Made by a program: the position numbers and the translations under genes. The notes under the pieces are model-generated. The model was not told the DNA's origin and made no database searches. It saw only the letters and a program-made list of their open reading frames with translations. Positions 122 through 3,425 of a stretch of DNA of 43,102 nt are shown one piece after another (within the stretch, counting starts at the first letter, position 1; each line of letters begins with the position of its first letter). The stretch spans positions 1 to 43,102 of the forward strand of contig NZ_KB905747.1 of NCBI RefSeq assembly GCF_000381045.1, written 5' to 3'. The DNA comes from Thermus scotoductus DSM 8553 (GTDB lineage Bacteria; Deinococcota; Deinococci; Deinococcales; Thermaceae).

Positions 122-712
122 ATGGAGGGCATCCGCAAGGCGGCGGAAAAAGCGATTTTGGAGTTTCTGGACCTCTTCCCCATGCCCAGGGGAAGCCTCT
201 TCGTCCTGGGGGGGTCCACCAGCGAGGTCTTGGGGGAAAAGGTGGGAACGAAGCCCAGTCTCGAGGTGGCCGAAGCCATCCTCGAGGGGCTCCTTCCCCC
301 TCTCCTCGAACGGGGGATATGGATAGCCGTCCAGGGATGCGAGCACCTGAACCGGGCCCTGGTGGTGGAAAGGGAGGCAGCCCGGACCTACAGCCTGGAG
401 GAGGTCACCGTCTTCCCTCATCCCAAGGCGGGAGGGAGTCTGGCCACGGCCGCCTTTCTCCGCTTCCAGGACCCCGTGATGGTGGAATCCCTAAAGGCCC
501 AAGCCCACGGGGGAATGGACATCGGGGGCGTTCTCATCGGCATGCACCTGCGGCCCGTGGCCGTACCCCTTAGGCTTTCCCTGCGCAGGATTGGCGAGGC
601 AGTACTCATCGCCGCCAAAACCCGTCCCAAGCTGGTGGGCGGGGCCAGGGCGGTCTACACCCAGGAGGAGATGCTCAGGAAGCTGGAAGAATATCGGCAA
701 AAGCTTCCCTGA
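122..712 (+). CDS. TIGR01440 family protein (YwlG/UPF0340-like)
   Basis: This 196-residue protein has the family's usual length and conserved stretches: LGGSTSEVLGE near residue 30, the QGCEHLNRALVVER segment in the middle, and AHGGMDIGGVLIGMHLRPVAVP followed by KTRPKLVGGARAVY in the C-terminal third. The family is widespread in Gram-positive and Thermus/Deinococcus bacteria, and its function is unknown. It is predicted to be cytoplasmic with no signal peptide. The ATG at 122 follows a weak GGAGGC at 110-115 and lies 20 bp after the terminal repeat, so its promoter is either in the repeat or missing from the window. The last 38 nt overlap the convergent aminotransferase gene. The family call is firm; the role is not known. 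Confidence 0.85.
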   Translation: MEGIRKAAEKAILEFLDLFPMPRGSLFVLGGSTSEVLGEKVGTKPSLEVAEAILEGLLPPLLERGIWIAVQGCEHLNRALVVEREAARTYSLEEVTVFPHPKAGGSLATAAFLRFQDPVMVESLKAQAHGGMDIGGVLIGMHLRPVAVPLRLSLRRIGEAVLIAAKTRPKLVGGARAVYTQEEMLRKLEEYRQKLP

Positions 713-1733
713 AAAGGGCCGCCACCCCGAGGGCCTCGTAGCGGTTGTAATAACCCATAAGGGAAAGGCGGAATACCCTGCCCTTCAAGGGCCCCTGGCC
801 CCCGGCGATCACCGCCTGCCTTCGGGCAAAGGCCTCCTTCACCTTCTGGTAGGAAACCCCTTCGGGCAGGTAAAAGGCGGCCACCGCCGGGCTTGGCACC
901 TCGGGCAGAGGGCTTAATCCCAGCTCCGCCCCAACCCGGTACAGAAGGTCGTTCTGCCAGGCCTTTAAGGCCAGGTGTTCGGGAAGCTTGGGCAACACCT
1001 CCTCCAGCACCGCCGCCACCGCCCCCACCAGGTTGATGGCCGGGGTCCAGGCGCTTTCCCCTTCCCTCTGGGCTTTGAGCTCCCGGGAGAGGTTCAGGTA
1101 GTAGCCCCGGGGGCGCAAACGTTCCAAGGCCCAAGGGCTTAGGGCCACAAAACCCAGCCCTGGGGGGCACATGAGGCCCTTCTGGCTACCGGAGGCCGCG
1201 GCGTCCACTCCCCAGGCCTCGAGGGCCACCTCCCGTACCAGCAAGCTGGTCACCATGTCGGCCCCCACCAGACCCTCGGGGTTGGCCTCCTTAAAGGCTC
1301 TTGCCAGGGCGGGCAGGTCCACCATGGCCCCGGTGGAGGTCTCCGAGTGAACCAGCAGTAGCCCTTGGTAACCGGGCCGGGCCACCTGCTCTGGGCCAGG
1401 CACCTCCCCGTAGGGGAGGTCCAAGCGATCCACCTCAAGCCCTGCGCTCTCGGCAATCTCGGCAAAACGCTCGGAAAACTTCCCGTAAACCGGCACCAAC
1501 ACCCTTTCCCCGGGAGCGAAGAGGTTCCACACCAAAGCCTCCATGGCCAGGGTGCCGCTTCCCGTGAGGATCAGGACCTCCCCTTGGGTTTGAAAGGCTT
1601 GTTGGAGAAGGTTTCTAGCCCTTAGGAAAAGCTCCCGGGCCGGCTCCGTACGGTGGTGGAGCTGGGGACGGCTAAGGGCCTCCAACGCCTTGGGGTGAAG
1701 GCGAACCGGTCCAGGGGTGAGGAGCCACTCCAT
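675..1733 (-). CDS. Class V aminotransferase (alanine-glyoxylate aminotransferase family)
   Basis: A 352-residue cytoplasmic PLP enzyme. The N-terminal LLTPGPVRLHP motif and the GSGTLAMEALVWNL cofactor-binding region (about residues 58-71) are typical of the serine/alanine-pyruvate-glyoxylate aminotransferase group. The SGSQKGLMCPPGLGF segment carries the lysine expected to form the Schiff base with PLP. The conserved HSETSTGAMVDLPALA stretch contacts the substrate-side carboxylate in relatives. The exact amino donor cannot be told from sequence; serine, alanine or aspartate with glyoxylate or pyruvate are all possible. It is transcribed after the NuoB-like gene on the same strand (9-nt gap), so the two may share a transcript. 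Its 3' end overlaps the converging TIGR01440 gene by 38 nt. Confidence 0.85.
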   Translation of the reverse strand: MEWLLTPGPVRLHPKALEALSRPQLHHRTEPARELFLRARNLLQQAFQTQGEVLILTGSGTLAMEALVWNLFAPGERVLVPVYGKFSERFAEIAESAGLEVDRLDLPYGEVPGPEQVARPGYQGLLLVHSETSTGAMVDLPALARAFKEANPEGLVGADMVTSLLVREVALEAWGVDAAASGSQKGLMCPPGLGFVALSPWALERLRPRGYYLNLSRELKAQREGESAWTPAINLVGAVAAVLEEVLPKLPEHLALKAWQNDLLYRVGAELGLSPLPEVPSPAVAAFYLPEGVSYQKVKEAFARRQAVIAGGQGPLKGRVFRLSLMGYYNRYEALGVAALFREAFADILPAS

Positions 1734-1742
1734 GGGAAAAGT

Positions 1743-2453
1743 TTAGCGTAAGAAGCCTCCCACTAAGCGCTGGACCATTCGGCCAGTGAGAAGCAAGAGC
1801 CCGTGGAGAATGGCCCCCGGCCTAGGCGGGTCTCCCGGCACGTAGACATCCACGGGCACCACCTTATCCACCCCCGCCAGCACCTCTTGGCTTTCCGCAA
1901 AGACCCCGCCCGAAATGGCCTCGTTCCCCACAGCCACCACCCCTTTGGGCTCCGGCATGGCCTCGTAGGTGCGCCTTAGGGCCTCGGCCATGTTGCGGCT
2001 CACGGGGCCCGTGACCAGAAGGGCGTCCGCGTGCCGGGGCGAAGCCACCACCTGGAACCCAAAGCGGCCCATGTCGTTAAAAGGATTGCCAAGAAGGGCG
2101 ATCTCCGAGTCGGCAATGCCTGTGCCCCCGGCGCTCACCTCGCGAAAGGCCAGGGTAGGTAGGCGAAGCTCTGTCCGAGGGGAAGGGGGAGGGCCTGGGT
2201 CCAGAAACCCTCCCCTGTCCAGGTCCACCCGCTGGACCAGGTCCTCCCGCCGGGTCACGGCCACCTCGAGGCGCTTTACCTCCTCCACCGCCTCTGGGCG
2301 GCCCAGAACACACCGGCCACATCCCACGCACCGGGCCAGGTCCAGCTGGAAAACCCCGCCCTCCTCCCGGAAGGCCCCGCTCGGGCAGAGGCGAAGGAGG
2401 TGGGCCCGGGCCTTGAAGAACTCCGCCTTGTAGCGGTGGAGGGTGCTAGGCAT
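1743..2453 (-). CDS. Ferredoxin/NuoB-like (group 4 hydrogenase small-subunit-like) protein lacking cluster ligands
   Basis: This 236-residue protein fuses two domains. Residues about 20-75 resemble a HyfH/HycF-type ferredoxin half, with CP at 23 and CVGCGRC at 42-48. The usual fourth Cys before Pro is replaced (LGRPEA), leaving at most one 4Fe-4S site. Residues about 100-225 match the NuoB/HycG fold, for example VASPRHADALLVTGPVSRNM and MPEPKGVVAVG, followed by VDKVVPVDVYVPG. All four cysteines that hold the N2-type cluster are replaced: the CxxC region reads TGIADSE (T111, A114), GDCA/GACA reads GNEA (E178) and GCPP reads GDPP (D208). No hydrogenase or complex I partner gene is present in the window. 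The ATG at 2453 follows GGAAG with good spacing; a longer reading frame upstream is less likely. It was probably inherited as a structural or regulatory relic, which is inference. Confidence 0.75.
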   Translation of the reverse strand: MPSTLHRYKAEFFKARAHLLRLCPSGAFREEGGVFQLDLARCVGCGRCVLGRPEAVEEVKRLEVAVTRREDLVQRVDLDRGGFLDPGPPPSPRTELRLPTLAFREVSAGGTGIADSEIALLGNPFNDMGRFGFQVVASPRHADALLVTGPVSRNMAEALRRTYEAMPEPKGVVAVGNEAISGGVFAESQEVLAGVDKVVPVDVYVPGDPPRPGAILHGLLLLTGRMVQRLVGGFLR

Positions 2454-2496: not shown

Positions 2497-2525
2497 CTTA
2501 GGCCTCTTCGCCCCCCCCCTGTCAA
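2497..2525 (-). promoter_or_regulatory. Candidate promoter with G9 tract in spacer
   Basis: On the minus strand a perfect TTGACA (2520-2525) is followed directly by nine G residues (2511-2519). A weak -10-like CCTAAG/TAAGGT lies 17-19 nt away. It would drive the NuoB-like gene. The -35 hexamer is exact; the -10 is poor. Confidence 0.4.
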
Positions 2526-2564: not shown

Positions 2565-3425
2565 ATGCCAGAGCCCATGTTTCGCCTCCGCTACCGAAGC
2601 CCAGGGCAGGAAACCCTCCTGCTTCCCCTGCCCCAAAGCCTTCCCGGGCAGAAAGTGGGGGACCTCTTCCTCTCCCGGCGGCCCGAGGAGGTGTACGAGG
2701 CCCAGGGGAACCTCCTGGCCCGCTTTTCCCTCTCCGAGGGGGAGATCCTCGAGGTGCGCTTCCCCTTGAAGACCGAACCCCTGAAGCACCTCCCCCCCTG
2801 GGGGAAAACCCTCCTCTTTGAACCCCCGGAGGCCTGGCCCGGCATCCTGGCCCACAAGGGACACAAGGTAGAAAGGGCCTTTGGCTTTCTCCTCTCCGGC
2901 CAACCCCACGCCTGGTACCTGGTGGACGGGCTTCCCCTGGATCCCCTTCTCTACCAAACCCTCCAGGAAAACCCCACCCACCTCCTCCCCTTGGGGGTAG
3001 CCCCCGAGCCCCACCTCTACCTGGGGGGGCACGAGGGGAAAAGACTTCTCCTTTTAAGAACCCCCTGGCCAGGAGGGGAGGAACCCCTGTGGCAAGAGCT
3101 CCACCCCCTGGGGTTCCAACCCCTGCCCTTCCTTCGGGGCCTGGCCTTCGCCAGCCTGGGGGTTTCCGCCCTGGGCCTGGCCACCGGTCCTTGGTTCTAC
3201 CTTCCCTACCTGGGGGCGCTGATCCTGCAGCAGGGGCCTGCCCTCAAAAAGCTTTTCCTGCGCACCCCGCGCCACGTTTTGGAAAGCCTGTTCTTCCACG
3301 CCTTCGCCCTTTCCGTAACGGTAAACCCCAGGCCGGAGCTCGGCCTGGGGTACCTGGCGCTCTTCCTCTGGAACCGGCTTAGGCCTTCCGCCGCAACTCC
3401 GAAAGAATCTCCCGAAGAAGCTTGA
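2565..3425 (+). CDS. Hypothetical membrane-associated protein
   Basis: A 286-residue protein I do not recognise. The first 190 residues are soluble-looking and rich in Leu, Pro and Gly, with no obvious catalytic motif. Two hydrophobic stretches follow at roughly residues 192-225 (around LRGLAFASLGVSALGLATG and YLPYLGALILQQG). A third lies near the C-terminus (LESLFFHAFALSVTV, LGLGYLALFLWNRL), suggesting a C-terminal membrane anchor of two to four helices. The ATG at 2565 is preferred; 2577 (MFRLRY) and a GTG at 2535 are in-frame alternatives. It is divergent from the NuoB-like gene across 111 bp that hold the palindrome, and its 3' end overlaps mscL by 47 nt. Codon use matches its neighbours, so it is probably a real Thermus-lineage gene. 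Confidence 0.65.
   Translation: MPEPMFRLRYRSPGQETLLLPLPQSLPGQKVGDLFLSRRPEEVYEAQGNLLARFSLSEGEILEVRFPLKTEPLKHLPPWGKTLLFEPPEAWPGILAHKGHKVERAFGFLLSGQPHAWYLVDGLPLDPLLYQTLQENPTHLLPLGVAPEPHLYLGGHEGKRLLLLRTPWPGGEEPLWQELHPLGFQPLPFLRGLAFASLGVSALGLATGPWFYLPYLGALILQQGPALKKLFLRTPRHVLESLFFHAFALSVTVNPRPELGLGYLALFLWNRLRPSAATPKESPEEA

Follow-up and report, generated by a model that had tools for sequence, protein, structure and literature searches.

A chimeric small-subunit gene in Thermus scotoductus, most likely the scar of a deletion in an energy-converting hydrogenase-related operon

The window, the whole stretch of 43,102 nucleotides from Thermus scotoductus DSM 8553 that was analysed, contains a chimeric open reading frame of 236 amino acids (1743-2453, minus strand) in which, by alignment to relatives, the start of an arsR gene is followed by a truncated small-subunit gene of the energy-converting hydrogenase-related (Ehr) type. 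The gene is best explained as the scar of an in-frame deletion of ~6.2 kb in an Ehr operon and is most likely a relic, a reading to which we give a probability of about 0.87. The scar itself is ordinary, although it serves as a caution that an unusual fusion gene may have arisen by deletion. Of greater interest is the Ehr variant from which it derives, in which the small subunit is without the cysteines of the proximal (N2) cluster.

The deletion junction

The reading frame starts with an ATG at 2453 and ends with a stop codon at 1743-1745. Codons 1-15 (2409-2453, minus strand; MPSTLHRYKAEFFKA) match the start of the arsR gene in 12 relatives and run on in frame into the small-subunit gene, which they enter seven codons ahead of its CP motif. 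In the relatives, the arsR product matches the ArsR helix-turn-helix family (PF01022, E 6.8e-12) and scores above the cut-off for NF033788; in the window, 15 codons of it are left. When the window is compared with the loci of relatives, two clean alignment blocks are obtained that abut in the window and lie 6.0-6.2 kb apart in the relatives. The junction (2408-2413, minus strand) is marked by a 6-nt microhomology, AGGCCC, which is common to arsR and the right-hand parent and is clearest in locus L040. What the genome retains is thus arsR codons 1-15, a palindrome upstream of them and, of the small-subunit gene, the 3'-terminal 221 codons.

A search of 27 genus genomes identified, in 14 besides the window's own, orthologs of residues 14-236 (79-86% identity); in the same 14, the first residues of the chimera were matched separately, ~6 kb upstream. 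The deletion was found in one genome only. When a 6.1-kb probe covering the deleted DNA was searched against the window's own genome, no match was obtained; in two other genomes, which served as controls, it produced full-length matches at 97% and 91%. Relocation of the operon within the genome is thereby ruled out. The large subunit, present in 14 of the 26 other genomes of the genus, was likewise not found in the window's own genome; with neither a large subunit nor a membrane arm there, the window gene is not part of a working Ehr complex. The observation in the earlier note that no large subunit or membrane partner lies nearby is true of the window, but it is explained by the deletion of ~6.2 kb, since relatives carry these genes directly upstream.

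Illegitimate recombination at the microhomology of 6 nt is the probable cause of the deletion. As the locus is mosaic, DNA entering the cell was perhaps involved. Within positions 1-2408, the window is ~99% similar to relative G004 below position ~1330, parts of ~1400-1960 are nearer to G003, G002 or G001, G004 is again nearest at ~1960-2228, and G014 is nearest from ~2228 to the junction. Most simply, this pattern would reflect recombination with DNA from other species of Thermus. Patchy similarity to several relatives, in a draft genome of 84 contigs, might also be expected if reads of related sequences had been mis-joined, in which case both the deletion and the mosaic would be artefacts of assembly. 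This is extremely improbable: contamination is low (0.27) and completeness is high, neither the deleted DNA nor the large subunit is on any contig, and mosaics are expected in the naturally competent Thermus.

Fold and ferredoxin segment of the chimeric protein

The chimeric protein matches the Pfam family Oxidored_q6 (E 1.3e-23, 83.5 bits, cut-off 27) and the NCBIfam NuoB subfamily PRK06411. Its predicted structure has a mean pLDDT of 92.7 and a HycG/MbhJ fold, and structure comparison of the NuoB-like domain (1779-2156, minus strand) with MbhJ of MBH (6cfw) and HycG of Escherichia coli formate hydrogenlyase (7z0s) gave Z scores of 19.7-22.8, the highest (22.8) to HycG. The family matches and the fold together bear out the earlier assignment of the gene as a NuoB/HycG-type small-subunit-like protein. 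Hence the reading frame keeps the Oxidored_q6 domain and the fold of NuoB and of group 4 hydrogenase small subunits; the four cysteines of the proximal [4Fe-4S] cluster are missing. A high-confidence fold is expected since the parent gene of the chimera was recent and intact, and the well-folded predicted model carries no information on function.

The same domain family and fold are found in the complex I subunit NuoB (Nqo6 of Thermus thermophilus, 2fug). Unlike Nqo6, the window gene has lost its cluster cysteines. A canonical NuoB is encoded by a separate gene of the same genome; 179 of its 181 residues are the same as in Nqo6, and its cysteines are kept. As this gene is intact, the chimeric gene is not the complex I subunit of the genome.

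The amino terminal half of the protein contains a one-cluster ferredoxin segment (2310-2387, minus strand), outside of which lie the first 15 residues that originate from the ArsR regulator. C23, the cysteine of the CP motif, is predicted to make up one complete [4Fe-4S] ligand set with C42, C45 and C48, and all four are invariant among the 44 small-subunit homologues aligned. This ferredoxin half had been described as lacking its last cysteine. The complete and invariant set refutes that description and rules out a ferredoxin part that is short of a ligand; the "missing" cysteine belongs to a second cluster, the motif of which is absent from all orthologs.

Loss of the proximal cluster in the Deinococcota orthologs

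The N2 positions were assigned by a gap-free alignment of an ortholog of the window gene to MbhJ (6cfw_J). On the minus strand of the window, they are occupied by T111 (2121-2123), A114 (2112-2114), E178 (1920-1922) and D208 (1830-1832), which confirms by an alignment of the window gene itself, and by comparison with MbhJ, the Thr, Ala, Glu and Asp that had been claimed for the four cysteines. The N2 cysteines are missing from 13 sequences of the genus and from 7 others of the class, and none of the four is present in any ortholog of the genus or of the related genera tested. The residues found instead are T/(A or T)/E/D in the genus, T/D/E/S in related genera, and G/D/E/S in a more distant genus. 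Within the genus, T, E and D are invariant at positions 1, 3 and 4, and position 2 is either A or T.

The earlier note had proposed an alignment of orthologs and had named retained cysteines, and hence local decay, as the outcome that would speak against it. Here the loss of the cysteines is shared by all orthologs, which rules out local decay in the window gene, while the exact T/A/E/D set varies, which rules out a conserved ligand set of that composition. One may still ask if the four residues are a new conserved site for a different metal or cluster, since T, E and D do not vary within the genus and both E and D could bind metal. This is very unlikely, as position 2 is A or T in the genus and D outside it, position 1 changes to G and position 4 to S in relatives, and A and T are poor ligands. 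The drift of non-ligand residues at the N2 positions suggests that the cluster was lost rather than replaced. As read from the alignment, it is clear that the N2 loss predates the deletion because every related copy of the small subunit is without the proximal cysteines. Most simply, the loss would date to a common ancestor of the copies in Deinococcota.

The intact complex of the relatives

The operon is present in 14 of the 26 other genomes of the genus, mostly at the window site, with the gene order ArsR-HyfB-HyfC-HyfE-HyfF-HyfG-small subunit (composition examined over the full locus in 12 of the 14 genomes). From its gene content and sequence motifs, the intact operon is identified as encoding an Ehr complex. 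The homologues of HyfB, HyfC, HyfE and HyfF, which are antiporter-like and NuoH-like membrane subunits, adjoin in order, and their pump Glu/Lys motifs are conserved. The large subunit, for which HycE of E. coli formate hydrogenlyase is nearest among solved structures, is without both NiFe CxxC motifs and has ERAGSEPVAHAL and SFDLSYAGNDL instead (12 genus sequences and 6 related); true group 4 hydrogenases aligned with it retain the NiFe motifs. Its C-terminus, DFPLCNKSFDLSYAGNDL, has the form found in the Ehr complexes of many phyla (DFPLCNKSFxLSYxGxDL). In a quick tree, the large subunit sits among the Ehr rows and apart from four true hydrogenases.

Ehr complexes have been reported in Sulfobacillus (PMC4378227), in comammox Nitrospira (PMC10284858), and in sibling lineages of the Cyanobacteria (PMC6349859). 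The operon of the relatives is like these in its subunit set and in a large subunit without NiFe cysteines; the window genome differs in retaining a fragment only. No function was found to be assigned to Ehr complexes in the open literature searched. Compared to MBH, to whose MbhJ the ortholog of the window gene aligns without gaps, and to formate hydrogenlyase, the Ehr-type complex considered here is without the NiFe site and without the proximal cluster.

Median pairwise dN/dS among intact orthologs is about 0.15 (0.144 for the small subunit and 0.154 for the large subunit), and both subunits are therefore under purifying selection. The absence of selection, which the earlier note had counted against its own proposal, is thus not what the intact orthologs display. 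A structural rather than an electron-carrying role for the NuoB-like domain is reasonable for the small subunit of the intact complex, given that the cysteine loss is shared and the gene is under purifying selection. The structural role that had been suggested for the window gene is in that respect sound; the window gene itself, however, is a remnant of an operon that has been deleted.

From the conserved residues, the intact complex may move ions through its antiporter-like subunits. Its former redox arm, with no NiFe site, no proximal cluster and one ferredoxin cluster, would then be a structural or regulatory cap and not a full electron wire. The complex might instead be a true redox pump in which electrons take another route that bypasses the lost proximal cluster, and the ferredoxin cysteines are indeed invariant in every aligned Ehr small subunit, including those without N2 cysteines. 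A redox pump is nevertheless doubtful. Sequence and family scans found no other cofactor-binding motif in the small or large subunit, and no relay to the active-site cavity other than the proximal cluster is known in the structures of MBH and complex I.

Fate of the chimeric gene

Without a large subunit and a membrane arm, the chimeric protein could not do its ancestral job and would accordingly be a relic. It may still be expressed and folded, and would be derepressed, since its own ArsR is gone. Upstream of the gene is a perfect 20-bp palindrome (2465-2484; TGGCTATATGCATATAGCCA) that is identical upstream of arsR in three relatives and is probably the operator of the deleted ArsR. Upstream of the palindrome, a TTGACA that is also present in the nearest relatives (2520-2525, minus strand) may serve as a -35 element.

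Decay after the deletion was looked for in the chimeric frame by dN/dS and by unique changes, and none was measurable; there is no stop or frameshift. At sites that are otherwise invariant, the frame has three changes, a number that falls in the range of 0-4 observed for the orthologs and points to neither decay nor selection. Two of the three, D to G at residue 110 and L to I at residue 113, lie on either side of T111 in what was the cluster loop.

The in-frame joint, the preserved ferredoxin cysteines, the mean pLDDT and the lack of an excess of changes speak against a relic, and a retained function is possible. In such a case, the fusion would be kept as a soluble ferredoxin-NuoB-like protein with a new role as a small electron carrier, redox sensor or scaffold. 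The joint does retain the promoter side, the start codon and the four ferredoxin cysteines, the predicted fold is of high confidence, and the frame is free of stops, frameshifts and any excess of unusual changes. Yet chance alone would put one third of joints in frame, two of the three unusual changes lie next to T111, and the stand-alone form is present in no relative among the genus genomes searched. Furthermore, a NuoB domain alone would expose faces that are normally packed on the large and membrane subunits. A new role is for these reasons unlikely, and a relic of the Ehr operon is the preferred reading. A stand-alone repurposed protein as the ancestral state is ruled out, as the relatives carry the operon in full and the short form occurs in none of them.

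Proximal cluster loss across Ehr complexes

A wider sample of 80 related loci was assembled from public genomes. Most Ehr small subunits in this sample keep CCCC at the N2 positions, unlike the Deinococcota small subunit, which is without all four proximal cysteines. Small subunits of the Bacteroidales type have D/C/D/N (L097, L105, L110, L113, L120, L131, L133, L146, L154, L158 and L160) or, in L155, D/Y/D/N. Three loci from Dehalococcoidales, Altiarchaeales and Methanosarcina (L087, L114 and L117) have a common D/T/D/N and are placed together on the large-subunit tree. On a quick 91-row large-subunit tree, on which support for the Deinococcota clade is 100, at least seven changes between kept and lost are needed, a count that is approximate given a short tree search, a very long row (L082), and four hydrogenases that are not on one side of a branch. 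By this approximate count, Ehr complexes outside the Deinococcota would have lost the N2 cysteines independently, in both bacteria and archaea.

Two side observations concern the replacement residues. The Bacteroidales D/C/D/N set is almost unchanged and has the appearance of a conserved alternative, unlike the drifting set of the Deinococcota. In two verrucomicrobial small subunits, L152 and L162, the fourth position is Trp (D/V/C/W and S/E/E/W), and near relatives keep CCCC.

For complex I and the group 4 hydrogenases, ion pumping is believed to be coupled with electron transfer at the proximal cluster. It is tentatively proposed, as a possibility that we hold to be rather less than even, that Ehr complexes repeatedly became redox-poor ion transporters. 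The proximal cluster would have been lost after the NiFe site, the pump residues and the ferredoxin cluster would have been kept, and the former redox arm would act as a regulatory cap; this may have taken place in the Deinococcota, Bacteroidales, the archaeal/Dehalococcoidales group, some Verrucomicrobia and others. Complexes with a pump but without a proximal cluster would test the role of the peripheral arm without redox chemistry. No account of proximal-cluster loss in Ehr complexes was found in the open literature searched; Marreiros 2013, reportedly the main study on Ehr complexes, lies outside that scope and may already note the loss. Judged by the open literature searched, repeated N2 loss in pump-keeping Ehr complexes is new.

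Distribution of the operon and its site

In genomes without the operon, the site is empty, with MscL, a 283-aa open reading frame, an aminotransferase and DUF436 adjacent. In the window, a class-V aminotransferase (675-1733, minus strand) flanks the downstream side of the operon site, and the 283-aa frame (2574-3425, plus strand), beside MscL, flanks the upstream side. This frame has no Pfam or NCBIfam match, yet it is kept beside MscL in the genus with 66-76% identity. In genome G023, hyfB (L044:2270-4020) is disrupted, with a stop inside the gene and a gap of 100 nt, and loss of the operon is therefore recurrent. From these comparisons, the operon is patchy and repeatedly lost, and the window is one step of that loss. 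The locus presents operon loss in steps within one genus: intact, broken, scar and empty site.

Rv0081 of Mycobacterium tuberculosis is presumably an ArsR-type regulator. Within Rv0081-Rv0087, it adjoins and regulates HycD/P/Q/E-like genes and two oxidoreductases (PMC6901956). Likened by the published gene list, the operon of the Thermus relatives has a comparable gene set under a linked regulator; the gene order differs, as far as that list shows.

In G011 and G012 (L038, L176 and L177), the operon has another location and its usual site is empty, so it would appear to have been moved or acquired twice. In another genome, two copies of the small subunit with equal score are on one contig (G049:C2:21497-22276 and 247222-248001), which may reflect a duplicated operon or an assembly repeat.
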